Origin: Tannerella sp.
GTDB lineage: Bacteria > Bacteroidota > Bacteroidia > Bacteroidales > Tannerellaceae
Assembly (NCBI GenBank): GCA_031271805.1
Contig: JAISUX010000122.1
Span: forward strand, 1 to 50,546
Direction: 5' to 3'
Length of the DNA: 50,546 nt
The notes below the pieces were generated by a model. It ran no database searches. It saw only the letters and a list, made by a program, of their open reading frames with translations, and was not told the origin of the DNA. Positions 32,412 through 47,468 of the stretch are shown in pieces. The position numbers were made by a program, and so were the translations under genes. Every line of letters begins with the position of its first letter. The stretch's first letter is position 1.

Positions 32412-33731
32412 ATGAGTGCAAAAATTTATTTTCCGATGGTGGAAAAAATCAGGTTTGAAGGGAAAGAAAGCAAAAATCCCTTGGCATTTCGTTATTATGA
32501 CCCGGAAAAGGTCGTTTACGGCAAGAAAATGAAGGAATGGTTCAAATTCTCTATGGCGTGGTGGCATACACTCGGCGCCGACGGCGGCGACCCGTTCGGC
32601 CCTGGCACCAAGACCTTCCCATGGACCCAAGGGGTGAGCGACGTTATCGAACTTGCAAAGCAAAAGATGGACGCCGGTTTCGAGTTCATGCAGAAAATCG
32701 GGATCGAATACTACTGTTTCCATGACATCGACCTTGTGTCGGAAGGTTCGTCGATAGAAGAATATGAGTCTAACCTGAAGCAAATCGTCGCTTATGCCAA
32801 GCAGAAGCAGGCCGAGACAGGCATTAAACTGTTGTGGGGTACGGCCAATGTGTTCGGCCACAAGCGTTATACCAACGGCGCCGCTACTAATCCCGACTTT
32901 GACGTCGTAGCCCGCGTGGCGGTACAAATCAAGAACGCCCTCGACGCTACAATCGAGCTTGGCGGCGAGAATTACGTCTTTTGGGGTGGTCGCGAAGGCT
33001 ACTATTCGCTTCTTAACACCGATATGAAGCGTGAAAAAACGCATCTCGCACAGATGCTGAAGGCCGCCCGCGACTATGCCCGCGCTAAGGGTTTCAAGGG
33101 TAATTTCCTTATCGAGCCTAAACCTATGGAACCGACCAAACATCAGTATGATGTTGATGCAGAGACGGTTATAGGTTTTTTGCGCGCTAACGGCCTCGAC
33201 AAGGATTTCAAGCTCAATATTGAGGTCAACCACGCGACCCTCGCCGGCCATACCTTCGAGCATGAGCTGCAATGCGCTGCCGATGCGGGATTGCTCGGTT
33301 CGATCGACGCCAACCGCGGCGACGCGCAGAACGGCTGGGACACCGACCAGTTCCCCGTCGATACTTACGAACTCACTCAAGCCATGCTTGTGATACTACG
33401 TAACGGCGGCCTGCAAGGCGGCGGCACTAATTTCGACGCCAAGACACGTCGCAGTTCGACCGATCTTGAGGATATCTTCATCGCTCATATTGCAGGAATG
33501 GACGCATTTGCACGCGCCCTCGAAAGCGCAGCCGCAATACTTGAATCGTCCGAAATCCCCGCTTTGTTGCGCGAGCGCTATTCGTCGTTCGACAGCGGCA
33601 AGGGCAAGAGCTTCGAGGACGGTCAACTCACGCTTGAGGATCTTGTAGCTTACGCGAAAGCTAAGGGTGAACCGAAACAAATCAGCGGTAAGCAGGAATT
33701 GTACGAGGCTATTGTTAATTTTTATGTATGA
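32412..33731 (+). CDS. xylA: Xylose isomerase
   Basis: 439 residues, group II length. It converts D-xylose to D-xylulose with two divalent metals. Motifs: [22 protein letters not shown]-type YYCFHDIDL with the catalytic His, [37 protein letters not shown], and [17 protein letters not shown]. Together with xylB and the MFS transporter it forms a full xylose uptake and entry pathway. The transporter starts 1 bp after its stop. Confidence 0.97.
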
Positions 33732-33732
33732 C

Positions 33733-35181
33733 ATGAAAAGAGAATATAACCTCGCGTACATAGTTTGTATAACCCTTGTGGCGACCCTCGGCGGCTTGCT
33801 GTTCGGCTATGATACGGCCGTCATTTCGGGCGCCGAGAAAGGACTTGAAGGCTTTTTCCTTGGCGCAAAGGATTTTCAATATACTAAGGTCCTGCACGGT
33901 ATAACCTCGTCGAGTGCACTTATCGGATGCGTTGTCGGCGGGCTTATATCCGGATTTTTCGCTTCCCGTTACGGGCGGCGCGACTCGTTGCGTTTCGCGT
34001 CCGTGCTGTTTTTTCTTTCGGCTCTCGGATCGTGGTCTCCCGAATTTCTTTTCTTTGAAAAGGGCGTTCCTACATGGGATCTCTGGATAACATTCAACCT
34101 CTACCGCGTACTCGGCGGGATAGGCGTAGGGCTTGCCTCGGCGATAGTGCCGATGTACATAGCCGAGATTTCGCCCTCTAACATCCGCGGGACGCTCGTC
34201 TCGTGCAACCAGTTTGCAATAATTTTCGGTATGTTGGTGGTCTATTTCGTTAATTTCCTGATACTTGGCGATCATACTAATCCTATTGTCGATAAGGATG
34301 CGGCGGGAATACTGAGCGTTAATGCCGCTTCCGATCCGTGGACAATAGCGACCGGTTGGCGCAGGATGTTCGTCTCGGAGGCGTATGTAGCCTTTGTTTT
34401 CGGTATCCTGCTGTTTTTCGTGCCCCGCACGCCGCGCTATCTTGTGCTTGTCGGGCAGAACGAACGCGCGATGTCGATACTGACAAAAATCAACGGCATG
34501 ACGAAAGCTAAGGAAATCCTCGACGACATAGTCTCCACCTCAAAGGAAAAAACCGAGAAACTCTTTGCTTACGGCTCGCTTGTAGTCATCATCGGCATAT
34601 TGCTGTCGGTCTTCCAGCAGGCAATCGGTATCAACGCCGTGCTGTATTTCGCCCCCCGCATCTTCGACAGTGTAGGCGTTGAGGGCGGAGGTATGATGCA
34701 AACGGTTATTATGGGAATCGTCAACATCCTGTTCACCGTTGTGGCAATAGTCACCGTGGATAAGTTCGGTCGTAAACCGCTGTTAATCATTGGTTCCATA
34801 GGTATGGCCGTGGGCGCATTCGCCGTTGCCCTGTGCGATAATTTCGCCGTCAAGGGAATCGTTCCGGCGCTGTCGGTTATCGTTTATTCAGCATTTTTTA
34901 TGATGTCGTGGGGGCCGATTTGCTGGGTGTTGATATCCGAAATCTTCCCGAATACAATTCGCGGAAAGGCTGTGGCAATTGCCGTTGCTGCGCAATGGAT
35001 ATTCAATTATATCGTCTCATCGACTTTCCCGCCGCTCTACGATTTCAGTCCGATGCTGGCTTACGGCCTGTATGGAGTGATGTGCGTTTTCGCCGCCCTG
35101 TTCGTGTGGAAGTTAGTCCCCGAAACCAAAGGCAAAACCCTCGAAGACATGACGCGACTTTGGAAGAAACGGGCAAGTTGA
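33733..35181 (+). CDS. xylE: Sugar porter of the MFS family, probable D-xylose:H+ symporter
   Basis: About 482 residues, 12 predicted membrane helices. Sugar-porter signatures: GGLLFGYDTAVISGAEKG, SRYGRRDSLR, YIAEISPSNIRGTLVSCNQ, DKFGRKPLL and PETKGKTLEDM. The cytoplasmic loop near residues 245-285 is normal for XylE-like proteins. The start at 33733 (MKREYNLAY) gives a 1-bp gap after xylA; an in-frame ATG at 33724 inside xylA is possible. Xylose specificity is inferred from the operon. Confidence 0.9.
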   Translation: MKREYNLAYIVCITLVATLGGLLFGYDTAVISGAEKGLEGFFLGAKDFQYTKVLHGITSSSALIGCVVGGLISGFFASRYGRRDSLRFASVLFFLSALGSWSPEFLFFEKGVPTWDLWITFNLYRVLGGIGVGLASAIVPMYIAEISPSNIRGTLVSCNQFAIIFGMLVVYFVNFLILGDHTNPIVDKDAAGILSVNAASDPWTIATGWRRMFVSEAYVAFVFGILLFFVPRTPRYLVLVGQNERAMSILTKINGMTKAKEILDDIVSTSKEKTEKLFAYGSLVVIIGILLSVFQQAIGINAVLYFAPRIFDSVGVEGGGMMQTVIMGIVNILFTVVAIVTVDKFGRKPLLIIGSIGMAVGAFAVALCDNFAVKGIVPALSVIVYSAFFMMSWGPICWVLISEIFPNTIRGKAVAIAVAAQWIFNYIVSSTFPPLYDFSPMLAYGLYGVMCVFAALFVWKLVPETKGKTLEDMTRLWKKRAS

Positions 35182-35217
35182 ATAAACTTAAAATAATCAC
35201 AAATAAATTTAAAATGC

Positions 35218-35248
35218 TTTGTAGTAAAATAAACTTGTTGTATTTTTG
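35218..35248 (+). promoter_or_regulatory. Promoter of perR
   Basis: TTTG (35218-35221), exactly 19 bp, then TATTTTTG (35241-35248): a near-perfect Bacteroidota promoter. Confidence 0.75.
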
Positions 35249-35260
35249 TGTCGATTTTGA

Positions 35261-35279
35261 AAATGTAATTATTACAATT
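35261..35279. promoter_or_regulatory. Probable PerR/Fur box
   Basis: AAATGTAATTATTACAATT: arms of nine bases around a central T with one mismatch. It sits just downstream of the predicted transcription start and 5 bp before the perR start codon, a position suited to autorepression. Confidence 0.65.
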
Positions 35280-35284
35280 TAGAT

Positions 35285-35752
35285 ATGAGAATAAATTTTG
35301 AGGCAAGACAGAGGTTAATAGATGTAGGCGTGAAGCCTTCTCTGCATCGTATGGCTGTTATGGAATACCTTATGATGAATAGGGTTCATCCTACCGCCGA
35401 CATGGTTTATTCCAATCTTTACAATACGATTCCAACCCTGTCGAAGACTACGGTTTATAATGTATTGAAATTACTTGAGGAGAGGGGAGCTTTGAGGTCG
35501 GTGTATGTTGACGAGAAGAACGTCCGCTACGACGCAGATTTAACGGATCATGCTCATTTCAAGTGTGTTAAGTGTGGCGCGGTACGTGATTTGAAGCTAT
35601 ACAGGCCGCTTGAAAGCGGGGATGTCGAAGTTCCCTCAGGCATGGATCTTGGCAGTTGCCAGATATATTTCCGCGGCGTATGTGACAAATGCAAGCACGG
35701 AGTAAAAGCGGAAGACAATACGGAAGTAAAATTTACACAATGTGTTAATTAA
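35285..35752 (+). CDS. perR: Fur-family regulator, PerR type
   Basis: 155 residues. Winged helix: VHPTADMVYSNLYNTIPTLSKTTVYNVLKLLEERG. A structural zinc site is formed by CVKC (Cys94, Cys97) and CDKC (Cys133, Cys136). Regulatory metal candidates include His35, His89 and His91. Asp102 (GAVRDL) lies where B. subtilis PerR has its diagnostic Asp104, while Fur proteins usually have Glu, so a peroxide sensor is more likely than an iron regulator. The next gene, a rubrerythrin, fits a peroxide regulon. A palindrome lies just before the start codon. Confidence 0.88.
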   Translation: MRINFEARQRLIDVGVKPSLHRMAVMEYLMMNRVHPTADMVYSNLYNTIPTLSKTTVYNVLKLLEERGALRSVYVDEKNVRYDADLTDHAHFKCVKCGAVRDLKLYRPLESGDVEVPSGMDLGSCQIYFRGVCDKCKHGVKAEDNTEVKFTQCVN

Positions 35753-35783
35753 TTTATAGTCAAACATTTAAAAGTTATTAGAG

Positions 35784-36332
35784 ATGAAAAAGAAATGGAT
35801 TTGTACCGTTTGCGGGTACGTACATGAAGGAGACGAGGCGCCGGAGAAGTGTCCTCAGTGTGGACAACCGAAGTCCAAGTTTAAAGAATTGGTAGAAGGC
35901 GATGGTCTTAAATTTGCCGACGAGCATGTGATAGGTGTTGCAAAAGGCGTTGACCCTGTGATTGTTGAAGGCCTGAAAGCGCATTTTATGGGTGAGGCTA
36001 CCGAAGTGGGTATGTATATAGCCATGAGTCGCCAGGCCGACAGGGAAGGTTATCCCGAAATCGCAGAGGCGTTCAAGCGCTATGCTTTCGAGGAAGCCGA
36101 CCATTGCGCACGTTTCGCCGAATTGCTCGGCGAGGTCGTTTGGGATACCAAGACCAACGTTTACAAGCGTATGTTGGCAGAGCAGGGAGCTTGCGAAGAT
36201 AAAAAGCGTATTGCTACGCTCGCTAAGCAGCAAAATCTTGACGCCATACACGATACCGTTCACGAGATGTGTAAAGACGAGGCTCGACACGGAAAGGGAT
36301 TTGAAGGCCTGTATAACAGATACTTCAAATAA
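35784..36332 (+). CDS. Reverse rubrerythrin
   Basis: 182 residues. An N-terminal rubredoxin-like Fe(Cys)4 domain (Cys7, Cys10, Cys23, Cys26) is followed by a ferritin-like diiron four-helix domain with carboxylate and His ligands ([31 protein letters not shown]). Classical rubrerythrins have the opposite order, so this is the reverse type. It reduces hydrogen peroxide in the cytosol using NAD(P)H-derived electrons in anaerobes. It starts 31 bp after perR in a likely peroxide-responsive operon closed by a strong terminator. Confidence 0.93.
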
Positions 36333-36350
36333 TAGTGTTAATATTTTTCA

Positions 36351-36383
36351 GGAGGGTTTGTAGGCGATACAAACCCTCCTTTT
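36351..36383 (+). terminator. Rho-independent terminator after rubrerythrin
   Basis: GGAGGGTTTGTA / TACAAACCCTCC, a perfect 12-bp stem with loop GGCGA, followed by TTTT. Confidence 0.9.
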
Positions 36384-36436
36384 AGTCTCACTAAGGTTAA
36401 ATTTATCTTTAAAATGTAAAAAAAAAAAAAATAAAC

Positions 36437-36466
36437 GTTGCGTTCGAGAAATTATACTTATCTTTG
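36437..36466 (+). promoter_or_regulatory. Promoter of the 36487 gene
   Basis: GTTG (36437-36440), 18 bp, then TATCTTTG (36459-36466). A run of 14 A residues (36418-36431) lies just upstream, a possible UP-like or slippage-prone tract. Confidence 0.6.
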
Positions 36467-36486
36467 TACCCTTAAAATGGTTTCGT

Positions 36487-37458
36487 ATGAAGAATATAGA
36501 GCTTAAAATAAACGAAAAATTCGTCGAAATTCTCCGTACTATAGAGCCGGAGAAGGTAAAATTGGTGAGTCTGCTCTGCGAACTTATTGAGTGTGAGAAA
36601 CTCGCCGTGTATCGACGATTGAGAAGCGATATGCCTTTCACATTTGCCGAGATAGTAAAAATATCAATGCACATAGGGATATCCTTGGATAGAATTGCGG
36701 GAATATCAGACCAATACAGGAGTCAGCCGTATAATATGTTTTGGCAGGATTATTTCAATCTTACAGATGTGGATTATAATATGTCGGGTGATTATATTAA
36801 GGCTATTAATTTTGCTTCCAAATGTCCTCATTCGGAAATTGGCATAGCCATGACAACTCTGCCGTTGCATGCGATGGTGAATTTTCCTAATTTATATCGT
36901 CTTTACATACTCAAGAGTTTGTATCAACTCGGTTCCCCTAATGAGCCGGTGCCTTATTCCGGCATAGTCATTCCCAGTCGCATGATAAATGAGCATAAGC
37001 TATACAACAAGGCGGTCAGGGAGATAGCCTACACGTATGTTATTATGGATGAGTATATTCTTGAGACATATATCAGAGACGTCAAGTATTTCCAATCCAT
37101 CCGTCTTATATCGAAAAACGAAATAGATATAATAAAGCGGGATTTGTTAAATCTTATCAATTGTGTAGAGAAGATTGCCACTTTCGGGGCGTATGATAAC
37201 GGCAAGGAAGTGGATTTATACGTCACCGGTTTGACGTTTGAGACCACATACACATATATTTATTCCGATTCTGTGACCGTAAGTATGGTTGATGCATTCA
37301 CGACAGGCTCGATGGCGTCGGTCGATAAAGATGCTTGCGACCATATTCGCAAGTGGTTGCGTTCGATGAAGCGCACATCGACGATGATTTCGTCGTCGGA
37401 GAAAAACCGCATTATGTATTTCGACAAGCAACGGTCTATTGTCGAGAATATGTTGTAG
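36487..37458 (+). CDS. Unrecognised protein with an HTH-like N-terminus
   Basis: 323 residues. Residues about 20-75 ([23 protein letters not shown], then [22 protein letters not shown]) look like a XRE-type helix-turn-helix. The remaining ~240 residues are mostly helical with no motif I recognise; no signal peptide or membrane segment is evident. The arrangement resembles single-chain Bacteroidales regulators with N-terminal HTH and C-terminal sensor helices. It lies 86 bp upstream of the encapsulin operon on the same strand, with its own promoter, so it is a candidate regulator of that operon. Function not established. Confidence 0.6.
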
Positions 37459-37464
37459 AAAAAA

Positions 37465-37484
37465 AATACCACATTCTTGGTATT
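37465..37484. promoter_or_regulatory. Inverted repeat overlapping the -33 element of the encapsulin operon
   Basis: AATACCA and TGGTATT, perfect 7-bp arms separated by CATTCT. The right arm overlaps the -33 TTG. It could be an operator; alternatively, with the A tract before it and T tract after it, a weak bidirectional terminator for the preceding gene. Confidence 0.55.
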
Positions 37485-37513
37485 GCCGCATCATTTTTTT
37501 ATGCCTATTTTTG
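37483..37513 (+). promoter_or_regulatory. Promoter of the encapsulin/sulfur operon
   Basis: TTG (37483-37485), 20 bp, then TATTTTTG (37506-37513), 31 bp before the first start codon. Confidence 0.65.
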
Positions 37514-37544
37514 CAGCCGATTAATTAATTTTTTTATTGATTTT

Positions 37545-38492
37545 ATGGGAAAAATAGCTAAAAAATTGACTGACCTCGTGGGAAATACGCCTTTATTGGC
37601 ATTGGGGTCGTTTGGGAAATTACATTCTTTGGAATCGACGGTGATCGGCAAATTGGAGTATTTCAATCCGCTCGGCAGTGTTAAAGACCGTATTGCTCTT
37701 GCGATGGTCGAGGATGCCGAAAAGCAGGGGATACTCAAGCCCGGTGCGACGATTATTGAGCCTACAAGCGGTAACACGGGCATAGGCCTTGCGTTCGTAG
37801 CCGCTACTAAGGGCTACAAACTTATTCTTACGATGCCGGAGACGATGAGCCTTGAGCGTCGTAATCTACTGAAAGCCCTCGGTGCAACTCTCGTGCTGAC
37901 GCCAGGAGCCGAAGGCATGAAAGGGGCGATAGCCAAAGCAAAAGAGCAGCAGGAAAAGATCGAAGGCTCAATAATCCTGCAGCAATTCGACAATCCATCC
38001 AATCCTGAAATCCATCGCACAACGACGGCCGAGGAGATCTGGAGCGACACCGACGGCAAGATTGATATCTTCGTTTCGGGCGTCGGCACCGGCGGAACGG
38101 TCAGCGGCGCCGGCAAACGCCTGAAAGAGCTGAATCCGGCTTTGAAAGTCTATGCCGTTGAGCCTGATGCATCGCCGGTATTGTCGGGAGGAGCGCCGGG
38201 AGCGCATAAGATTCAGGGTATCGGCGCAGGTTTCGTGCCGAAGAACTATGACGCCGCTGTCATCGACGAGGTTATCCGCGTGACAAACGACGATGCGATC
38301 CGTACAAGCCGCGAATTAGCCAAGACCGAAGGCTTGTTGGTAGGCATCTCGTCGGGCGCAGCCGCATACGCAGCTCTCTCGCTCGCCAAAAAACCGGAAA
38401 ACAAAGGCAAAAACATAGTGGCTATCTTGCCCGACACGGGCGAACGCTATTTGTCAACGGTTCTTTACGCATTCGACGAATATCCGTTGTAA
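37545..38492 (+). CDS. cysK: Cysteine synthase, first copy
   Basis: 315 residues, PLP-dependent O-acetylserine sulfhydrylase family; makes cysteine from O-acetylserine and sulfide. Motifs: [20 protein letters not shown] with PLP Lys47, EPTSGNTG (substrate loop), [11 protein letters not shown] (phosphate loop) and [11 protein letters not shown]. The start at 37545 is at the conserved N-terminus; the frame remains open upstream through the promoter and into the preceding gene, which is not meaningful. It is the first gene of a six-gene unit with sulfur relay proteins, an encapsulin and a cysteine desulfurase, so it may supply cysteine to the desulfurase or refix released sulfide. Confidence 0.93.
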
Positions 38493-38520
38493 TTATTTTC
38501 GGAACCTTTGCGTATAAATT

Positions 38521-39462
38521 ATGGCAAAGATAGCAAGTAAACTTACCGATCTCATCGGCAATACACCGTTGCTGGAGCTTGGAAGAATAGAGGAACAGCT
38601 CGGTTTGGAGGCGCATATTCTGGCGAAAATAGAGTATTTCAATCCGGCGCGAAGCGTTAAAGACCGCATCGGGTTGGCTCTCATAGAAGAAGCTGAGCGT
38701 AAGGGGCTTATTAAGCAAGGTACGGTTATTATCGAGCCAACGAGCGGTAATACCGGCCTTGCGCTGGCTTTCGTCGCCGCCTCCAAGGGCTACCGGCTTA
38801 TCTTAGCGATGCCCGACACTATGAGTATTGAGAGGCGGGGGTTGCTGTTGGCGCTGGGCGCCGAACTTGTGTTGACGCCCGGTTTTGAGGGCATGAGCGG
38901 CGCGATACGCAAGGCTGAAGAATTGCAGCGGCAATACCCTAACTCTTTCATCCCGCAGCAGTTCCAAAATCCCGCCAACCCGCAGGTTCACCGCACGACG
39001 ACCGGCGAAGAGATATGGCGCGACACGGACGGAAAGGTCGATATCTTCATTTCGGGCGTCGGGACTGGCGGTACGGTGACAGGTAGCGGTGAGACGCTCA
39101 AACGGTACAACCCGGCGGTCAAGGTCGTCGCCGTAGAACCTTTCGATTCGCCGGTGCTGTCGGGAGGCAAGCCCGGACCGCATAAGATTCAGGGTATAGG
39201 CGCGGGCTTCGTGCCCAAGGTTTTCAATCCGAAAATCATTGACGAAATATATAAGGTAAAAAACGACGAAGCAGCCCTGACAAGCCGTAACCTCGCGCGT
39301 ACGGAAGGATTGCTTGTGGGAATATCGTCGGGCGCAGCCGTATATGCGGCCATTCAGATAGCTAAGCGTGTTGAAAACAAGGGGAAAAATATCGTCGTAA
39401 TCTTGCCTGACACGGGTGAGAGGTATTTATCAACGCCTCTTTATCAATTTGATAATAAATAA
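38521..39462 (+). CDS. cysK: Cysteine synthase, second tandem copy
   Basis: 313 residues, same family as the gene just upstream and clearly a divergent paralogue (shared [51 protein letters not shown]). The PLP Lys is Lys47 in [10 protein letters not shown], where the first copy has NPLGSVKDR. The bulkier Ala-Arg pair beside the lysine could alter cofactor or substrate handling. Gap to the first copy 28 bp, to the DsrE-like gene 12 bp. A near-match to a -7 element (AACCTTTG, 38503-38510) precedes it and might be a weak internal promoter. Whether it uses O-acetylserine, O-phosphoserine or a persulfide donor is open. Confidence 0.9.
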
Positions 39463-39474
39463 ATTACAATAATT

Positions 39475-39954
39475 ATGGCAGAAAACAAAAAACTTTCAAT
39501 AATCGCTTTCAGCGGCGATTTCGACAAACTGACGGCTGTTTTTACGCTTGCGACAGGCGCCGCCGCCGTGGGTTATGAGGTAAACATCTTTTTCACCTTC
39601 TGGGGTCTTGACGCTATAAAAATTAAACAGGGACGATCAGCGGTCGGCAAGGGTTTCTTGCCTAAGGTATTTGGCCTGTTTATGGGCGGTCTTAAGAGCG
39701 CTCCCGTCAGTCGGTTGAATTTCCTCGGCGCAAGTCCGAAAATTTTCCGTTACCTGATGCGCAAGAAGAACGTTGCGACCCTCGAAGAGCTTGTCGAAGC
39801 GGCCAAGGCGCTCGGCATTAACTTCTACGCCTGCGAGATGGCGATGCACATTCTCGGTCTCGAAAAAAGCGATTTTATACCCGAAGTAAAGGATGTGCTC
39901 GGCGTGGCATCGTTCCTTAACATCTCGGAGGGAGGTCAGACACTGTTTATTTAA
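39475..39954 (+). CDS. DsrE/DsrF-like (DsrE2-type) sulfur-carrier protein
   Basis: 159 residues. N-terminus KLSIIAFSGDFDKLTAVFTLATGAAAVGYEVNIFFTFWGL is typical of DsrE2-like proteins. The conserved sulfur-binding candidate is Cys120 in YACEMAMHILGL. A hydrophobic stretch near 62-74 (LPKVFGLFMGGL) may associate with membranes or a partner. Proteins of this group carry persulfide sulfur and commonly pair with TusA, which is encoded 5 bp downstream. The setting points to passing sulfur between the desulfurase and other acceptors in the cytosol. Confidence 0.85.
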   Translation: MAENKKLSIIAFSGDFDKLTAVFTLATGAAAVGYEVNIFFTFWGLDAIKIKQGRSAVGKGFLPKVFGLFMGGLKSAPVSRLNFLGASPKIFRYLMRKKNVATLEELVEAAKALGINFYACEMAMHILGLEKSDFIPEVKDVLGVASFLNISEGGQTLFI

Positions 39955-39959
39955 GAATT

Positions 39960-40187
39960 ATGGCAAGATATGATTTGGATGTGACGAATGAGCATTGCCC
40001 TATGACATTCGTCAAAACGAAAATTGCACTTAACAAACTGCAAAAGGGCGATGTGCTTGACGTCCGTTTGCTTGACGGCGAGCCGCTCGAAAATGTCCCG
40101 CGCAGCGCCGTTGAGCAGGGATTCAAGGTATTGTCGGTCAAAGAAACCGACACTAAAGGAGTTTATAATGTAGAAATTGAAAAATAA
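39960..40187 (+). CDS. TusA-like sulfurtransferase
   Basis: 75 residues, the small two-layer alpha/beta fold of TusA/SirA-like proteins. The persulfide-carrying residue is Cys13 in NEHCPMTFVKTK, where many TusA proteins have CPxP. The rest (LQKGDVLDVRLLDGEPLENVPRSA) fits the family. TusA proteins accept sulfur from a desulfurase and hand it to DsrE-type or other partners. Gene spacing: 5 bp after the DsrE2-like gene, 4 bp before the encapsulin gene. Confidence 0.88.
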   Translation: MARYDLDVTNEHCPMTFVKTKIALNKLQKGDVLDVRLLDGEPLENVPRSAVEQGFKVLSVKETDTKGVYNVEIEK

Positions 40188-40191
40188 AATT

Positions 40192-41631
40192 ATGGCACAA
40201 AACGATTTACAGCGTAGCATAACGACTGCGACGGCTAAAAAATTAGCGACGACAACCAAGACGCCCCCGCAAATGGGGTCTATCACTCCGCGACTGCTTT
40301 TGAAACTGTTGCCTTGGGTGCAGGTGGATTCGGGCACTTACCGCGTCAACCGTACCAAGGTCGAACTCAAGAAAGCGGAGCGTATCGAAGTGGAGTTCTT
40401 CAACGGCATACCCTCTTTTCGCGTCGAATCGTTCAGGCGGATACCTCTTTTCGCCCATATCGACGAAAATATCGTGACCCGTTTGGCGAAGAAGTTCCAA
40501 ATCGAAAACGTTGACCTCGGCGGGACGCTTATCGCTGCCGACAAAGACCCTCAAAAGTTCTTTATAGTCGGACAGGGACAGGTCGAGATTTCGAGCAAAG
40601 GCACTCACGGTGAGGATCTTCGCATAGCAATGCTGTCCGAAGGCGAGTATTTCGGCGAGGCTGATTTGCTGTCCGACAAACTGTCGTCGGTCACGGTTAA
40701 AGCCATCACGCCGACGGTCTTTTTCACTCTCAATCAGGCGGAATTGGAGGATATACTGAAAGAGATACCGACATTCCGCGAGCAGTTCCAAAAGGCTGTC
40801 GATGAGCACCTGCGCCTGCGGGCGACGGTCAACGCTCACGGTGAGAAGCATATCGACCTACTTTCGGGGCACGAAGAGGACAATGTCATCACGGAAACTT
40901 ATATTGATTACGAAGAAAATCCGCGCGAATATCCGCTCAACACCCTGCAAACGGTGGTGCGCGTGCATACCCGCGTGTCCGACCTTTACAACAATCCTTA
41001 CAACCAACTCGAACAGCAAATGCGCTTGAGTATTGAGGGATTGCGCGAGAGGCAGGAATGGGAACTCGTCAACAACAAGGATTTCGGTTTGTTGGCAAGT
41101 GTCGAGCCGGGCTACCGCATCACGACACGTTACGGCTCGCCGACGCCCGACGACCTCGACGAACTGCTTTCACTCGTTTGGAAGAAACCGTCGTTTTTCC
41201 TTGCGCATCCTCGTGCCATCGCGGCTTTTGAACGCGAATGTACCTGGCGCGGAGTGCCGCCCGTGACAACGACTATATTCGGCGAACCTGTCGTAACCTG
41301 GCGCGGAGTGCCGATTATTCCGAGCGATAAGGTGGAGATTCAGGGGCAATACCTGACTAATCGCGGCGTCGGGACAACAAGCATTATCCTTGTACGCACA
41401 GGCGAGGAAGACCAGGGTGTTGTAGGTTTGCACCAGGCAGGCGTTCCGGGCGAGATTGCACCAAGCCTCTCGGCAAGGATAATGGGTCTCGACAAGTATG
41501 GCGTGGCGAGCTATTTGCTGACGAAATATTTCTCGCTTGCTTCGCTGACCGACGACGCAATAGGCGTGCTCGAAAACGTCGAGGTGGGTTATTATCACGA
41601 TTACAATAACCGTAAGGCCGTTTTGAAATGA
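40192..41631 (+). CDS. Family 2B-type encapsulin shell protein with internal cNMP-binding-like domain
   Basis: 479 residues from the ATG at 40192 (an in-frame TTG at 40177 lies in the tusA end and is rejected). Residues 1-80 form an N-terminal arm; 80-205 a Crp-type cyclic-nucleotide domain (RIPLFAHID, FFIVGQGQVEIS, SEGEYFGEADLLSD); 245-479 the HK97-like shell fold (YPLNTLQTVVRVHTRVSDLYNNPYNQLEQQ, WKKPSFFLAHPRAIAAFER, TWRGVPIIPSDK, LTNRGVGTTSIILVRTGEEDQGVVGLHQAG). Such proteins self-assemble into hollow icosahedral compartments. In the phosphate-binding cassette FGE is kept, but the usual Pro-Arg reads Leu164-Ser165, so canonical cNMP binding is doubtful. Stop overlaps the desulfurase start (ATGA), implying coupled production of shell and cargo. 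Confidence 0.92.
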   Translation: MAQNDLQRSITTATAKKLATTTKTPPQMGSITPRLLLKLLPWVQVDSGTYRVNRTKVELKKAERIEVEFFNGIPSFRVESFRRIPLFAHIDENIVTRLAKKFQIENVDLGGTLIAADKDPQKFFIVGQGQVEISSKGTHGEDLRIAMLSEGEYFGEADLLSDKLSSVTVKAITPTVFFTLNQAELEDILKEIPTFREQFQKAVDEHLRLRATVNAHGEKHIDLLSGHEEDNVITETYIDYEENPREYPLNTLQTVVRVHTRVSDLYNNPYNQLEQQMRLSIEGLRERQEWELVNNKDFGLLASVEPGYRITTRYGSPTPDDLDELLSLVWKKPSFFLAHPRAIAAFERECTWRGVPPVTTTIFGEPVVTWRGVPIIPSDKVEIQGQYLTNRGVGTTSIILVRTGEEDQGVVGLHQAGVPGEIAPSLSARIMGLDKYGVASYLLTKYFSLASLTDDAIGVLENVEVGYYHDYNNRKAVLK

Positions 41632-43022
41632 AAGAAGATTTGGATTTGGCGAGCGTTTACGAGAGTTTGCAGCGTTTTGTGGGGCCTTTCACGGGTGAGG
41701 CCGATAATTTTAGTAGCGCTTTGGGGGGCAGTCTTGAGAACGTCGGAGATCTTCAAGGTTTTTTCTTCCCCGAAGACTACAACCTGCCGCGCAACGACGG
41801 TTTCGACGTCAATACCATACGCAAGGATTTCCCTATTCTTCATCAAAAGGTGCACGGCAAGGACCTGATATGGTTCGACAATGCCGCTACGACACAGAAA
41901 CCGAAAGTTGTTATCGACGCGCTTAAATACTACTACGAGCGCGACAACTCGAATATCCATCGTGCCGCCCACTCGCTTGCCGGTCGCGCTACCGACGGTT
42001 ATGAGGGCGCTCGTTCGAAGGTACAGCATTTCATCAATGCCTCGTCGCCCGACGAGATTGTCTTTGTCCGCGGCACCACCGAAGGCATAAACCTTGTGGC
42101 GCAGACCTACGGCAGGAAATTTGTCCGCGAAGGCGATGAAATAATCGTCTCGACCCTCGATCACCACGCCAACATCGTTCCGTGGCAACAATTGGCCAAG
42201 GAACGCGGCGCCATCTTGCGTGCAATCCCCGTCAATGACCGCGGCGAGATAATCCTTGATGAGTACGACCGACTGCTTAGTCCGCGCACGAAAGTCGTTG
42301 CGTTCGGGCATGTTAACAATACCTACGGAACAATTCTCCCCGTAAAATCGCTCATTGAGCGTGCTCATCGTTACGGGGCGCGGGTAGTAATAGACGGTGC
42401 GCAGTCGATAGCCCATACCCCTGTCGATGTGCAGGTTCTCGGCGCCGATATCTTCGTCTTTTCAGGACATAAGATCTACGCTCCGACCGGCATAGGCGTG
42501 GTTTACGGCAAAAAAGAATTGCTCGACATAATTCCGCCATGGCAATTCGGCGGCAACATGATAAAAGATGTGACGATAGAGGAAACGGTTTTCAACGTCC
42601 CGCCTGCAAAGTTCGAAGCAGGCACGCCTAACGTCGCCGACGCGGTCGGACTCGGCGCCGCCCTTGATTATGTGAGCCGTGTAGGTCTTGTAAACATTGA
42701 GAAATACGAGCATGAGCTAACCGAATACGCTCGTGCTGAACTTGGTCGTATCGACGGGGTGCGACTTATCGGCGACCCCCGCGAGCGAGTCAGCGTGGTC
42801 TCGTTCGTAATACCCGGCATACCGGCGTCCGAAGTCGGCAAATTGCTTGACCTTGAAGGTATAGCCCTTCGCGCCGGTCACCACTGCGCCCAGCCTGCTC
42901 TGCGAGCGCTCGGCGTCGAAGCAACCGTCCGCCCGTCTTTCTCGTTCTACAACACAAAAAGCGAAATAGACCGCCTGACCGATGCCGTCCGACGCATAGT
43001 CAACGGACAGCTCAAAGGGTAG
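41628..43022 (+). CDS. Encapsulin-associated cysteine desulfurase (SufS type), probable cargo
   Basis: 464 residues. The catalytic part equals SufS: WFDNAATTQKP, LDHHANIVPWQQ, SGHKIYAPTGIG with PLP Lys282, and RAGHHCAQP with Cys420. It releases sulfur from cysteine as an enzyme persulfide. Compared with the SufS at 3129-4337 it has an N-terminal extension of about 58 residues (MKEDLDLASV at the start, GFFFPEDYNLP before the fold), probably partly disordered and a candidate shell-targeting segment. The ATG overlaps the shell stop. No gap separates its stop from the convergent mltF stop (43023). Confidence 0.92.
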   Translation: MKEDLDLASVYESLQRFVGPFTGEADNFSSALGGSLENVGDLQGFFFPEDYNLPRNDGFDVNTIRKDFPILHQKVHGKDLIWFDNAATTQKPKVVIDALKYYYERDNSNIHRAAHSLAGRATDGYEGARSKVQHFINASSPDEIVFVRGTTEGINLVAQTYGRKFVREGDEIIVSTLDHHANIVPWQQLAKERGAILRAIPVNDRGEIILDEYDRLLSPRTKVVAFGHVNNTYGTILPVKSLIERAHRYGARVVIDGAQSIAHTPVDVQVLGADIFVFSGHKIYAPTGIGVVYGKKELLDIIPPWQFGGNMIKDVTIEETVFNVPPAKFEAGTPNVADAVGLGAALDYVSRVGLVNIEKYEHELTEYARAELGRIDGVRLIGDPRERVSVVSFVIPGIPASEVGKLLDLEGIALRAGHHCAQPALRALGVEATVRPSFSFYNTKSEIDRLTDAVRRIVNGQLKG

Positions 43023-44405
43023 TTATTTTTTTATCGTTTTGTAGAATTTATATCTTGCGAGGACTTCGCCGACGTACTTGTATGTTTCGATGCCGCGGAG
43101 GTAACCGTGTTTGCATACGGGGTCGTTGTAGTATTCCGGTTCGCTTTTAAGTCGGATGAACTCGGCTACGTTATTGTCCCATACCGAGGGGTTTTTGCCG
43201 TATTTCGAGGCCAATTTCTGGGCGTCGAGGATATGGCCGTTGCCGGCATTGTAGGCTGCGAGGGTGAATTTGATTTTTTCATCTCGGTCTTTGATAGACG
43301 AGAAAAAAGCGTTGAAATTCGACAGGCATTTTATGCCTGCTTGGATGGATATTTCGGCGTTTTCAAGGCTGTCGGGCGAGACGCCGAGGCTGCGCGCCGT
43401 ACTTGGCATGATGCCCATCAAGCCTTTTGCGCCCGCCCACGATTCGAGGTGGTTATGGAACTTGGACTCCTCGAAAGCGATTGACGCGAGTAGCCGCCAG
43501 TCCCAATCAGTGCCTTCTGCGTATTTGCGGAAAAGGTCGTCGTATGGCGAGATGTCGCCTTTCTTGATTATAAGTTGTTGACCGTCAGTGACGAAATCGT
43601 TTTTAGACTGTTCAAAATAACGCTTGGCGGTGGCCAGCAAAGCCGGGCTTTGTGAGATGCCGTTAGCCCATTCGTTGATTTTGGCGGCGAGTTCGGGGCA
43701 GTCCTTGCGCACAATCCATGAGGCGCGTTGCGGGAAGCTGATCGACAGGTTGATGTTAATATTCTGATAATAAGTGCTATTCAGGCGCGCGACATTGTTG
43801 TCGCTTACCGTGTATCGTATCTCGCCCGCGGCAACCATGCCTATCATATCTTCTACGGTGACGGTATCGCGTCCGATATTGCGTATTATTATCCCGCCGC
43901 CGAGTTCGTCGTTAAGCCTCATGAGGCGTTCGTGATAACGCGAGTTCTGTTTTACCCATATCTCCTTGCCTATAAGGCCGGTAACGTCATTAATTATTGT
44001 GTCGCCCCGATTGGATCGTTGTACGATAACGAGGTGATTCTGTTGCTCTACGCCGCAAAACAGGTAGCGTGTTTTCATCGTGTTGTCCATCTGGACGGGG
44101 TAGGCGACGATATCGACCTCGCCGGCGTCAAGCATTTCTTCAAGACGGGTGATGTTTTCGGCAATCCTGATATTCAGTTCGAGGCCGAGTGATGTAGCCA
44201 GATCCTCGACCAAATCATACTCGTAGCCCATCTGTTGCATCTTATATATAAAATATGTGGTCGATGTGTTAAGCGTGACGGCCGTTATTTCGCCTTTGGC
44301 TTTTATCTGCTCAAAATCATAAACTTCCGCCGTATTTTGTTTTTTCGGCAGAGAGCATGAGGCAAAGCTCAAAAACGATAAAAGAAACGGCAAAAACGGC
44401 TTCAT
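43023..44405 (-). CDS. mltF: Membrane-bound lytic murein transglycosylase F-like lipoprotein
   Basis: 460 residues from the ATG at 44405. Lipoprotein signal with lipobox ASC (Cys17). A periplasmic solute-binding-type domain (about 40-270; YEYDLVEDLATSLGLEL, VDIVAYPV) is followed by a lytic transglycosylase (SLT) domain with catalytic Glu in IAFEESKFHNH, and GAKGLMGIMPSTA and AYNAGNGHI. It cleaves peptidoglycan glycan strands, forming anhydro-muramic ends. The start overlaps the rlmD stop (ATGA). It ends directly against the desulfurase gene on the other strand. Confidence 0.9.
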   Translation of the reverse strand: MKPFLPFLLSFLSFASCSLPKKQNTAEVYDFEQIKAKGEITAVTLNTSTTYFIYKMQQMGYEYDLVEDLATSLGLELNIRIAENITRLEEMLDAGEVDIVAYPVQMDNTMKTRYLFCGVEQQNHLVIVQRSNRGDTIINDVTGLIGKEIWVKQNSRYHERLMRLNDELGGGIIIRNIGRDTVTVEDMIGMVAAGEIRYTVSDNNVARLNSTYYQNININLSISFPQRASWIVRKDCPELAAKINEWANGISQSPALLATAKRYFEQSKNDFVTDGQQLIIKKGDISPYDDLFRKYAEGTDWDWRLLASIAFEESKFHNHLESWAGAKGLMGIMPSTARSLGVSPDSLENAEISIQAGIKCLSNFNAFFSSIKDRDEKIKFTLAAYNAGNGHILDAQKLASKYGKNPSVWDNNVAEFIRLKSEPEYYNDPVCKHGYLRGIETYKYVGEVLARYKFYKTIKK

Positions 44406-45811
44406 ATCCTTATTAAAAGAGCTACGTTTTCTACATGATGAGTGTGGGGAAACATATCGACAGGCCTGATGCGTTCTACGCGATAGGCGCTGCTCATGCG
44501 GTTGAGGTCGCGTGCCTGGGTAGCGGGATTGCAACTGACATAGACTATTCGGCTCGGCATGGCGGCGAGGATAGTGTCGGTCACTTTGTCGTGCATGCCG
44601 GTACGCGGAGGGTCGGTAATCACGACATCCGGTCGGCCATTCTCGGCAATGAAAGCGTCGGACAGGAGATCTTTAATGTCACCGGCAAAGAAGCGGATGT
44701 TTGAGATGCCGTTGAGTTCGGCATTGATTTTTGCATCCTCAATGGCCTCCGGGACATACTCGATTCCGACAACCCGGCCTGCCTGACGGGCTATGAAATT
44801 GGCAATTGTACCCGTTCCGGTGTAGAGGTCATAGACCGTTTCCGTACCTGTCAGGGCGGCAAACTCGCGAACGACGGAGTACAACCTGTTGGCCTGCAAG
44901 CTATTAGTCTGGTAGAACGATTTCGGGCCGACTTTGAAGCGCAAGTCTTCCATCGTCTCAATGAGATGGTCTTTCCCGCAGTAGGACAAGATTTTGAGGT
45001 CGGTAATCGTGTCGTTGCATTTGCTGTTGACGACGTACATCAACGATGTTATTTCCGGGAAATTGTCCCTTACGGCATCAAGCAAAACGCAACGTTTAGC
45101 TTCGTCATCCTCAAAGAAAACGACTATGACCATGAGTTCGCCTGTTGACGAAGTACGGATAATGACGTTGCGGATAAACCCCGTTTGCGCTTTCAAGTCG
45201 AAGAACGGCCATTCGTTCGACAGGCATAAATTCTTTATAAACAGGCGAATACGGTTGGAAATGTCGTCTTGGAGCCAACATTTACGGATGTCGAGCACTT
45301 TGTCGAAGCGTCCGGGGATATGGAATCCGGCGCCGTTGAGTTCCGTCTCTTCGGGCGTCCGTCCCATCTCATCCGGCGGCAGCCATCTCCGGTTCGAAAA
45401 GGTGTATTCCAACTTGTTGCGGTAGCCAACGGTCGGTTCCGACCCCAATATCGGCAGCGTTTCACCTATCTCAACTTTGCCGATACGTTCGAGGTTGTCT
45501 ATGACCTGCTTCTGTTTATAACGTAGCTGTTCGTCGTAAGGAAGGTTTTGCCATTTACATCCGCCGCAAACGCCGAAATGTTCGCAAAACGGCTCCTGCC
45601 TAACAGCCGAATATTCATGAATCTCGACAATGCGCCCCTCGGCAAAATTCTTTTTTTTCTTCGTCAATTGAATATCAACCACATCGCCCGGCACAACGTA
45701 AGGTACGAAAACGACCATATCGTCCACCTTAGCGATGGCCTTGCCTTCGGCCGCCACATCGCTTATCAAAACCCGCTCTAACAGCGGTAAATTTCTCTTT
45801 TTTCTTCTCAA
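44402..45811 (-). CDS. rlmD: 23S rRNA (uracil-5-)-methyltransferase RlmD/RumA
   Basis: 469 residues, starting with TTG at 45811: the next upstream in-frame ATG is separated by a stop, and the conserved N-terminus RRKKRNLPLLERV begins here. TRAM domain (about 10-65), Fe-S cysteines (Cys76, Cys82, Cys85, plus one near RKCWLQ), SAM-binding YDLYTGTGTIANFI and catalytic Cys in VYVSCNPATQARDL. It methylates uracil in 23S rRNA (RlmD at U1939 or a related position). First gene of an operon with mltF. Confidence 0.92.
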   Translation of the reverse strand: MRRKKRNLPLLERVLISDVAAEGKAIAKVDDMVVFVPYVVPGDVVDIQLTKKKKNFAEGRIVEIHEYSAVRQEPFCEHFGVCGGCKWQNLPYDEQLRYKQKQVIDNLERIGKVEIGETLPILGSEPTVGYRNKLEYTFSNRRWLPPDEMGRTPEETELNGAGFHIPGRFDKVLDIRKCWLQDDISNRIRLFIKNLCLSNEWPFFDLKAQTGFIRNVIIRTSSTGELMVIVVFFEDDEAKRCVLLDAVRDNFPEITSLMYVVNSKCNDTITDLKILSYCGKDHLIETMEDLRFKVGPKSFYQTNSLQANRLYSVVREFAALTGTETVYDLYTGTGTIANFIARQAGRVVGIEYVPEAIEDAKINAELNGISNIRFFAGDIKDLLSDAFIAENGRPDVVITDPPRTGMHDKVTDTILAAMPSRIVYVSCNPATQARDLNRMSSAYRVERIRPVDMFPHTHHVENVALLIRI

Positions 45812-45840
45812 TCTAATCGTATTTTATGTCATTTCTTCTG

Positions 45841-45848
45841 CAAATATA
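45841..45848 (-). promoter_or_regulatory. -7 element of rlmD-mltF
   Basis: TATATTTG on the minus strand, 29 bp upstream of the TTG start. Confidence 0.5.
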
Positions 45849-45873
45849 CGATTTTTTTTGATTTTACATGCCA

Positions 45874-47337
45874 TCAAAATCTAAAATCTGAAATCCCTGA
45901 AATCAGTCGTTCGATATCGGATTTTATTTGTGACTGAGTGCAGTTAAAGTTATTGACGATGATTGTGACGGCGTAGATGCGGTCGTTTTTTGTTATGTAG
46001 CCGGCATAACTGCGGATGCGGCTCATGCTGCCGCTTTTAAGGCGGATATGGCCTTTCAAGGGGGAATTTACGAGAGTGCGGCGGACGGTGCCTTCGATTC
46101 CGGCGCGAGGAAGAGACTCAATAAAAGCCTGTCCCGTTGGGGATTTTACGGCCATATAACCCAGTATGTCGTTAAGGCAGCGGGCGGTAATCTTATCCGT
46201 CGGGGCGAGGCCGCTGCCGTCAAACATCCATAGCGAAGACGTGTCCAAACCCTTTTCCTGCCAGTGTTTCAGCAAGATCTTAACGCCTTTCCCGAATGAA
46301 GACAGAGGTTCATTGCCGGCATATTTCAAGCCGATAGTCTTGAGGAAAGCATCGGCATAGAGGTTATTACTCTCAAAATTAGCTATTTTCACCAAATCCT
46401 TCAATGGACGCGAATATGTGGTTATGAGCGTTTTGCACTCAGTGAGCGGATTCCGGTTGCCTGCTTGCGCGAGGATACGACGGCAAGTAGGCTCACAGGC
46501 TATGCTAATATCCTCTTTTTTAAGCAGTTTAGAGAAATAATGAGCTATGAATAATGCCGGTTCGGGGATATCGCCTACGAGCTTGTAGGACGAACGGTTG
46601 GCCGGAACAATACCGTAGATATAGCGTTCGTTTGAAAACGGGAAACCCACGATATAGGTACTATCCGAAGATATCTGACTGCAAGTAAGGTGATTATGAA
46701 AAACGACCGGTGGTATAAGTTCCGGATCGGTACGTTCGATCTTAGGGCTTTCGCCTGGCGCTTCGGTTTTCAGGTAAAGCGCATAGCGGTTGTCATAGAT
46801 ATTCAGGCCGTAGCAACCCTGTCCGTAGTAACTGCCGAGGTCTTCCCGCAGCCATTTCATCGAGACGCCCTCCGTATCAAAAATGCTTTCGTCGGCAATA
46901 ACCGCGCCTGTTATCGTCCGTATTCCCGCCGTCCTGACCGCCTCGACCCACTCATGAAGAACCATATCGCGGTCGGCGCCCAAATCGGCAGAACCGAGGG
47001 ACGGATCGCCGCCGCCGCGAATATACAAATTGCCGTTGAGAATGCTGTCAATGATCTCTCCGTCGTACAGGATTGAGGTCTCGTAAACGTAATTCTCGCC
47101 GAGTATTTCGAGCGCAGCGGAAGTTGTGACGATTTTCAGCGCCGAAGCGGGTATGACTTCCCTCTCGGCGTCGTAACTGCATATCACGGAATCGCTATTG
47201 ACATCCTTAACCATGATAGAAATCGACGCGCCCCTCAAATACGAAGCGCCAAGAAATCGATCCAATGCCGGATGCGACTGCGCAACTATCTGAAAAACAG
47301 AAAATAATAAGATCGACAAGAAATAAAATTTTTTCAT
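45874..47337 (-). CDS. dacB: D-alanyl-D-alanine carboxypeptidase/endopeptidase (PBP4 family)
   Basis: 487 residues from the ATG at 47337 (a TTG one codon upstream is ignored). Signal peptide ending near AQS (residue 21) predicts a periplasmic enzyme. Penicillin-binding motifs: SALK (Ser65-Lys68), SNN (323-325) and KSG (434-436). The large insertion between SxxK and SxN is typical of class C PBP4. It trims D-Ala and cuts peptidoglycan cross-links. The last codons (ISDFRF) are encoded by the AAAATCT repeat seen elsewhere in the window. Confidence 0.94.
   Translation of the reverse strand: MKKFYFLSILLFSVFQIVAQSHPALDRFLGASYLRGASISIMVKDVNSDSVICSYDAEREVIPASALKIVTTSAALEILGENYVYETSILYDGEIIDSILNGNLYIRGGGDPSLGSADLGADRDMVLHEWVEAVRTAGIRTITGAVIADESIFDTEGVSMKWLREDLGSYYGQGCYGLNIYDNRYALYLKTEAPGESPKIERTDPELIPPVVFHNHLTCSQISSDSTYIVGFPFSNERYIYGIVPANRSSYKLVGDIPEPALFIAHYFSKLLKKEDISIACEPTCRRILAQAGNRNPLTECKTLITTYSRPLKDLVKIANFESNNLYADAFLKTIGLKYAGNEPLSSFGKGVKILLKHWQEKGLDTSSLWMFDGSGLAPTDKITARCLNDILGYMAVKSPTGQAFIESLPRAGIEGTVRRTLVNSPLKGHIRLKSGSMSRIRSYAGYITKNDRIYAVTIIVNNFNCTQSQIKSDIERLISGISDFRF
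45875..45897. repeat. AAAATCT repeat forming the dacB 3' end
   Basis: Reads CAAAATCTAAAATCTGAAATCCC. It encodes the last residues and stop region of dacB on the minus strand and has the same orientation as the blocks near 324-3066. Confidence 0.6.
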
Positions 47338-47368
47338 CAAACAGTTTGAAAAGAATGAAACTCAGATG

Positions 47369-47376
47369 CAAAGATA
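47369..47376 (-). promoter_or_regulatory. -7 element of dacB
   Basis: TATCTTTG on the minus strand, 31 bp upstream of the start. Confidence 0.5.
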
Positions 47377-47406
47377 ATATAATTTTCGATAAAAACCGTG
47401 TTATTG

Positions 47407-47437
47407 GTTGAGATTGTTAAAAAAACAAGTACCTTTG
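47407..47437 (+). promoter_or_regulatory. Promoter of the M16 peptidase gene
   Basis: GTTG (47407-47410), 19 bp, then TACCTTTG (47430-47437). Confidence 0.65.
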
Positions 47438-47468
47438 TATTGAAATAAATTCATTAAATTATTAAAAT

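Follow-up and report, generated by a model that had tools for sequence, protein, structure and literature searches.

Linkage of a Family 2B encapsulin and its neighboring cysteine desulfurase to genes of a putative sulfur relay and ubiquitin-like carrier pathway in gut Bacteroidales

In a contig of Tannerella sp. (JAISUX010000122.1 of assembly GCA_031271805.1; the whole stretch of 50,546 nucleotides is called the window here), six genes at positions 37545 to 43022 bring together two cysteine synthases, a DsrE2-like and a TusA-like sulfur carrier, the shell protein of a Family 2B encapsulin, and a cysteine desulfurase (CD) of the SufS type. Comparison with relatives revealed that what is new in this system is the company that the Family 2B shell and CD keep, namely, genes of a putative dedicated relay and of a route based on a ubiquitin-like carrier; the pairing of such a shell with a CD is itself known. 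We tentatively propose, giving the idea nearly an even chance, that the shell and its CD feed or store sulfur for a route leading from TusA and DsrE2 through a ThiS-like carrier to CysK or MetY. This proposal draws on gene content, order, linkage, and co-occurrence, together with conserved catalytic cysteines and the tails of the carrier proteins.

All six open reading frames (ORFs) lie on the + strand with spacings of 28, 12, 5, and 4 bp followed by a 4-bp ATGA overlap, and the ORF coordinates confirmed the layout that had been described for them in a sequence-only reading of this DNA. The six gene identities proposed in that reading were each backed by Pfam or NCBIfam models, namely, CysK1 (37545 to 38492), CysK2 (38521 to 39462), the DsrE2-like carrier (39475 to 39954), the TusA-like carrier (39960 to 40187), the 479-amino-acid shell protein (40192 to 41631, written as Enc in gene orders), and the CD, in which an N-terminal extension (41628 to 41801) precedes the catalytic domain (41802 to 43022).

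To describe the gene neighborhood, contigs of other genomes were scanned; 369 relatives were confirmed and the best 80 were kept, from termite-gut, rumen, and other Bacteroidota with a lean toward near kin, in which species are not independent and many contigs are short. Among these best 80 loci, the shell gene (80) was accompanied by CD in 77, TusA in 73, DsrE2 in 70, and CysK in 68, consistent with the conserved neighborhood across Bacteroidota on which the sequence-only reading had made its interpretation depend. Further genes found there were those of a JAMM protease (61), an E1 enzyme (52), ThiS (51), MetY (29, including 4 under 40% identity and 25 at 40% or above), CysE (11), and sulfite reductase (1). 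When only the 42 loci with at least 5.5 kb upstream and at least 3 kb downstream of the shell were considered, the counts were 42 for CD, 41 for CysK, 40 for TusA, 39 for DsrE2, 35 for JAMM, 34 each for E1 and ThiS, 21 for MetY, and 7 for CysE, with ThiS, E1, and JAMM all present together in 34. The congener order CysK-DsrE2-TusA-Enc-CD recurs in other families and in rumen Prevotella-type genomes, and thus the arrangement is not a product of chance. The shell itself was present in 8 of 40 congeners and 2 of 19 other genomes of the family, in addition to the window's own genome. Two other genera, represented by L065 (Parabacteroides sp. Marseille-P3160) and L066, have the order CysK-ThiS-E1-DsrE2-TusA-JAMM-CysE-Enc-CD, and across the loci the carrier module stands before, inside, or after CysK-DsrE2-TusA-Enc-CD, or is inverted, while the genes remain together. 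A contig of Candidatus Symbiothrix (L093) has the permuted order CysK-ThiS-JAMM-Enc-CD-E1-DsrE2, still clustered. The E1 is of the ThiF/MoeB type and has no rhodanese domain. The C terminus of ThiS was GGG plus one to six residues in 68 of 73 matches (exactly GGG in 1; no GGG within the last nine residues in 4), suggesting that most of these carriers need trimming, in keeping with their pairing with a JAMM protease.

Co-occurrence was evaluated in 100 close relatives including the window's own genome, 11 of which possess the shell; the shell scan had matched 22 genomes, and 11 that matched through the cyclic nucleoside monophosphate (cNMP)-type domain only (E 1e-8 to 1e-3) were left out. Orthologues were counted at E <1e-50 for DsrE2, E <1e-90 for E1, and E <1e-60 for sulfite reductase, and 29 of the 41 DsrE2 matches, at E 1e-32 or weaker and many within ORFs of ∼800 amino acids, were left out. 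On this basis, DsrE2 was detected in 11/11 shell-bearing and 1/89 shell-free genomes, the contig of the sole shell-free carrier (G004) stopping 253 bp past TusA, while E1 occurred in 11/11 and 17/89 and sulfite reductase in 7/11 (including the own genome) and 17/89, respectively. In an order-wide sample of 393 genomes, 10 had the shell and 17 had DsrE2, which was present in 10/10 shell-bearing and 7/383 shell-free genomes (Fisher p 9e-16, not corrected for descent). Four of these seven shell-free genomes (L240, L241, L242, and L246) carry the module with sulfite reductase (Sir), two (L244 and L245) carry E1-DsrE2-TusA without it, and one (L243) has DsrE2 alone near a contig end. Within the set of genes searched, locus L241 (CysK-ThiS-MetY-E1-DsrE2-TusA-JAMM-Sir) is identical in order to L120 except that the latter has Enc-CD in place of Sir, and Sir likewise directly follows JAMM in L240 and L246. 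Moreover, copies of E1 linked to Enc and to Sir interleave in a tree of 72 rows, the well-supported branches of which force at least eight label changes for Enc and at least six for Sir. Gene order and tree topology thus indicate that the carrier module repeatedly swapped its partner between sulfite reductase and the shell plus CD, which is the main reason for reading the latter pair as a sulfur source for the module.

A phylum-wide sample of 395 genomes contained 62 that match the Family 2B model, including 55 from a single family (f58) outside the window's class. Seven f58 loci from six genomes (L069 to L073, L076, and L077) combine the shell with CysK and CD in 7/7 and with CysE in 5/7; weak E1 and ThiS matches were located 1.4 to 4.3 kb beyond the CD in one of them (L070), and the f58 CDs, where complete, have 630 to 740 amino acids. 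Considering these loci, the shell with CysK and CD is a wider theme, of which the relay and carrier module are a variant in the Bacteroidales examined.

In the window region from 33000 to 47500, no ThiS, E1, or JAMM gene was found, and none therefore shares the locus of CysK2 and the shell there. At the level of the own genome (86% complete), the genes of a protein-thiocarboxylate pathway are present, with ThiS (ending in FMGGGC), E1, and JAMM all on contig C41. Adjoining them is a 788-amino-acid ORF (L222, 4505 to 6871) that reads as a sulfite reductase carrying a TusA domain at its C terminus; MetY stands opposite this ORF, and the whole resembles an operon of the sulfite-to-homocysteine type. 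CysE is on contig C40. The idea that ThiS-E1-JAMM of the own genome is specific to the shell was dropped, considering the neighboring sulfite reductase and the occurrence of E1 in 17 of the 89 shell-free relatives. The sequence-only interpretation, a compartment buffering sulfur taken from cysteine, holds up in part: the tight unit and its conserved neighborhood were borne out, the CD is a likely cargo, DsrE2 and TusA are a likely relay, and CysK is supported as the end that would form cysteine. The components that would make the route complete, namely, a ThiS-like carrier, E1, and JAMM, had been overlooked.

The shell protein passes the curated Family 2B model NF041163 (565 bits; cut-off 400), also matches PF19307, and aligns with the solved Family 2B shell 9bje_A over residues 7 to 466 (E 3.3e-111), its AlphaFold2 (AF2) model being poor (mean predicted local distance difference test [pLDDT] score of 42.9). 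Only one match occurs in the own genome, at its 86% completeness, rather than the two shell genes of a two-component encapsulin, and the shell is hence of the single-gene type. A PF00027 domain at residues 110 to 190 (40519 to 40761, + strand) falls within the shell match and, judging from the alignment to 9bje_A, would be an E-loop insertion. The place of the phosphate-binding cassette Arg, which we take from PKA and CAP, is occupied by Ser165 in the window; in 79 aligned relatives (one more of the 80 being gapped), this position is Ser in 74, Ala in 5, and Arg in none. In the available text of PMC12407261, insertion domains of Family 2B shells are reported to lack cyclic-nucleotide binding. 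The insertion therefore probably holds no cyclic-nucleotide site, and of the cNMP-type domain pointed out in the sequence-only reading, the domain itself is present, and a role as a canonical nucleotide switch is not supported in view of Ser or Ala in 79/79 and of that report.

The CD belongs to the SufS family (TIGR01979, 551 bits, cut-off 475; PF00266, 486 bits), with the active-site Cys420 in a RAGHHC motif that is kept in 51 of 54 parsed relatives. It misses the cut-off of the Family 2A-type cargo model NF041166 (746 versus 800 bits, only model positions 222 to 623 being covered). Residues 1 to 58 (EDLDLASVYESLQRFV plus DLQGFFFPED) form an N-terminal extension that, from the relatives and the AF2 model, is a putative cargo-loading segment; in this model (mean pLDDT 77.3), a helix is predicted at residues 8 to 17 and residues 19 to 56 fall under a pLDDT of 50. 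Extensions could be measured in 54 of 77 relatives, the remaining 23 being unparsed, and all 54 have one, of 47 to 164 residues. A strict motif matched only 23/54, and therefore looser recurrent blocks were described by eye: LR[EQ]IA, D[ILV][DN]LxxV[YF]xS[FL], G[LF]FF[PD], and YSPYSFLRDQPITY, the window CD retaining the second and third only. The last block is similar to AASPYYFLDG, a motif in the cargo of Synechococcus; according to the available text of PMC8049743, a 29-residue piece containing that motif was insufficient for loading there. A second SufS-type CD in L248 has a short lead at most and no such extension (one case). The CD with its extension is likely the cargo of the shell, in line with the partnership of the two that had been suggested earlier.

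Both cysteine synthases exceed the TIGR01139 cut-off of 351 bits (447 for CysK1 and 460 for CysK2), and they fall into separate clades of a 102-row tree, which rules out a recent tandem duplication. CysK1 groups in a 15-row clade with unlinked, housekeeping copies (support 100/99), the encapsulin-side rows of which are the window copy and the second CysK genes of L134, L136, and L157; in these three loci, a housekeeping-clade CysK thus also lies beside the encapsulin cluster. CysK2 belongs to a 19-row clade (support 100/98) of 17 encapsulin-linked copies, one unlinked copy, and the window copy. No third CysK was found in the own genome at E 1e-20, at the completeness given above. The DsrE2-like protein matches PF13686 (DsrE_2; 136 bits, cut-off 25) and falls below the DsrE2 model of sulfur oxidizers (NF047629, 72.9 bits versus a cut-off of 210); its Cys120 is conserved in 69 of 70 aligned relatives and falls in a gap in the remaining one. 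The TusA-like protein is a member of the TusA family (PF01206, 70.7 bits, cut-off 28.6) with Cys13 kept in 73/73 aligned relatives, and in its CPMTF sequence the second Pro of the CPxP motif is replaced by Thr. DsrE2 and TusA are a likely persulfide relay, as in the sequence-only reading, and CysK is a candidate cysteine-forming end.

The following scheme, in which assembly, CD loading, sulfur storage, and each transfer step with its direction are inferred by analogy with the CysO/MoeZ/CysM/Mec+ pathway, carrier operons, and Family 2 CD encapsulins, may describe the system. A single-gene Family 2B shell would enclose the SufS-type CD by means of the N-terminal extension of the latter. The CD would draw sulfur from cysteine, and the shell may hold it as persulfide or elemental sulfur, from where DsrE2 and TusA would collect sulfane sulfur and transfer it to the ThiS-like carrier, first trimmed to Gly-Gly by the JAMM protease and adenylated by the rhodanese-free E1. 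The carrier thiocarboxylate could then react in CysK with O-acetylserine to yield cysteine, or in MetY with O-acetylhomoserine to yield homocysteine, with JAMM freeing the amino-acid product from the carrier. The shell and CD would accordingly act, beside sulfite reductase or replacing it, as a sulfur source or store that is fed by cysteine and from which the sulfur returns bound to protein rather than as free sulfide. In a more specific form of this proposal, which we regard as possible and on the doubtful side, a desulfurase-loaded encapsulin would be an exchangeable source for ubiquitin-like carrier chemistry in the sulfite reductase slot, turning stored cysteine sulfur into thiocarboxylate and then into cysteine and homocysteine.

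Several points weigh against the proposed feeding of the carrier route by the shell and CD. The main objection is that a path from cysteine to cysteine would be a futile loop; it would lose its force with charging and discharging at different times, or with homocysteine as the end product. DsrE2 is missing beside the shell in three of the 80 loci (L099, L108, and L118, all with long flanks), and ThiS, E1, and JAMM are all missing in 19, some contigs being short. In the own genome, ThiS-E1-JAMM is linked to sulfite reductase and not to the shell, and the fused TusA domain could serve that module; E1 also occurs without the shell in the 17 shell-free close relatives, and since shell and sulfite reductase are found together in 7 of the 11 shell-bearing ones, the two are not strict alternatives. 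DsrE2 and TusA are absent from 7/7 examined f58 loci, and the relay is thus not essential to every such shell. Finally, the CD extension in the window lacks the LR[EQ]IA and YSPYSFLRD blocks found in many relatives.

The strongest rival, which we consider rather unlikely, is a plain Family 2 CD encapsulin with a role in storing or insulating sulfur, with CysK, DsrE2, TusA, and the ThiS module merely coregulated, CysK2 acting on free sulfide and the relay serving other acceptors. It would be consistent with the serine acetyltransferase and rhodanese neighbors known from Family 2 CD operons (available text of PMC8346489), with the f58 arrangement of shell, CD, and CysK (CysE in 5/7) without relay genes, and with the link of the own-genome ThiS module to sulfite reductase instead, but the co-occurrence of DsrE2 with the shell across the order (10/10 versus 7/383), their physical linkage, and the slot swap exceed what would be expected from general coregulation. 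It is improbable that the shell insulates the CD and that persulfide passes to TusA only, for tRNA thiolation, a sulfur cofactor, or selenium metabolism and not for cysteine or homocysteine. TusA is elsewhere a tRNA-thiolation relay, and the best NCBIfam match of the present one is YedF of selenium metabolism, yet at 45 bits versus a cut-off of 79; against such products stand the dedicated CysK in 41 and the MetY-like gene in 21 of the 42 well-covered loci, and genes of tRNA thiolation or selenium metabolism were not noticed in the cluster, at which no family search for them was aimed. Very improbable is an arrangement in which sulfite reductase alone feeds thiocarboxylate assimilation and the shell and CD work in reverse, removing surplus cysteine or persulfide as detoxification with no return; the presence of sulfite reductase in 7/11 shell-bearing relatives, the own genome among them, and the Fur/PerR-like and rubrerythrin genes (named by eye) just upstream of the unit would fit, but the cluster partners make cysteine, none except the CD consuming it, and sulfite reductase adjoins the shell in only 1 of 80 loci. 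That the shell fails to assemble or to load the CD, leaving a free enzyme translationally coupled by chance, is hardly to be expected: while 63 residues precede the IRKDFP core here, compared with a loading domain of 225 residues in the available Synechococcus description (PMC8049743), and the window extension lacks conserved blocks, an extension of 47 to 164 residues occurs in all 54 parsed relatives (54/77), the shell aligns along its length with Family 2B structures that have been solved, and the second CD of L248 has no such extension (one case).

With regard to known systems, an elemental-sulfur-storing Family 2A encapsulin compartment was reportedly described by Benisch in 2024. The HcyS/HcyF/HcyD/MetY/Sir homocysteine pathway of Wolinella has in common with the present system ThiS, a rhodanese-free E1, JAB/JAMM, SirA/TusA, sulfite reductase, and O-acetylhomoserine sulfhydrylase, and contig C41 of the own genome resembles it. 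The same components are shared with classes 4c and 4e of Iyer (2006), which, as described in the available text (PMC1779556), contain no encapsulin or CD, unlike this system. That survey dealt with ThiS/E1/JAB/cysteine synthase operons in which SirA (TusA) substitutes for rhodanese where E1 lacks it, and contig C41 matches its sulfite-reductase carrier operon, class 4e, with SirA/TusA standing in for the E1 rhodanese. The CysO/MoeZ/CysM/Mec+ pathway of Mycobacterium tuberculosis (PMC3227635, as far as available) likewise combines the thiocarboxylate of a ubiquitin-like carrier with an E1, a cysteine synthase, and a JAMM hydrolase; there, the E1 has a rhodanese and the sulfur source is unknown, whereas here a rhodanese-free E1 is linked with TusA/DsrE2 and a predicted encapsulated CD. 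The Family 2A SrpI/CyD system of Synechococcus elongatus likewise joins an HK97-type shell to a CD and is linked to sulfur starvation and possible polysulfide storage, while its available description (PMC8049743) mentions no E-loop insertion and no dedicated relay, and its CD loading domain has ∼225 residues in comparison with the extension of ∼60 here. Among the closest systems are the Family 2B CD operons of a 2021 survey by the Giessen group, in which a shell with a PF00027 insertion also adjoins a SufS-type CD whose N-terminal extension is unannotated. The number of CD-containing operons given there is 1281 for Family 2A and 199, distributed over 9 phyla, for Family 2B, and the accessory genes most strongly enriched in Family 2 CD operons encode serine acetyltransferases and rhodaneses (PMC8346489, available text); the combination of a Family 2B shell with a CD, which the sequence-only reading had called unusual, is thus neither unusual nor new. 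The difference lies in the partners, which are DsrE2 and TusA here, and ThiS/E1/JAMM in relatives, compared with serine acetyltransferase and rhodanese as the only enriched accessories named there. In the literature searched, which excluded the supplements of encapsulin papers, we found no paper joining an encapsulin with a sulfur carrier and no description of an encapsulin tied to a relay and ThiS-like carrier route.

If true, the exchangeable-source reading would describe the first dedicated discharge path known for any protein compartment that stores sulfur. The Synechococcus paper weighs sulfur mobilization to a carrier against polysulfide storage after the CD step (PMC8049743, available text), and for this fate of encapsulin CD sulfur, the cluster offers concrete candidate acceptors (TusA, DsrE2, and the ThiS-like carrier) and a concrete candidate product (cysteine or homocysteine), with the same operon carrying sulfite reductase in the slot of the shell and CD as a natural contrast. 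These findings suggest a small rechargeable sulfur store in gut Bacteroidales, the exit route of which is now testable. The cluster is spread among gut Bacteroidales, lineages of the termite gut and the rumen included, and two isolates, Dysgonomonas capnocytophagoides and Parabacteroides sp. Marseille-P3160, carry it; hence, it is open to study in culturable strains.

Concerning transcription of the unit, both strands of the window were scanned for TTG-N18..21-TAnnTTTG, which we take to be the promoter consensus of the Bacteroidota type. There were 10 matches on the + strand and 2 on the − strand, and 7 of the 10 sit 49 to 87 bp ahead of a listed ORF start, one of these seven ORFs (at 26283) overlapping a longer opposite-strand ORF. 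One match, a promoter-like site TTG-N20-TATTTTTG at 37483 to 37513 on the + strand, starts 62 bp before CysK1, and no match was found on either strand within 37545 to 43022. Because this predicted promoter precedes CysK1 with none inside the unit, and considering the gene spacing, a single transcript for the six genes is likely. A palindrome, ATACCA-N6-TGGTAT (37466 to 37483), which may be a weak terminator or an operator, is located between CysK1 and a 323-amino-acid ORF (36487 to 37458) for which neither Pfam nor NCBIfam gave a match at E 0.001. This ORF follows the rubrerythrin gene, and the pair of Fur/PerR-like regulator and rubrerythrin genes, at 35285 to 36332, may link the region to oxidative stress.

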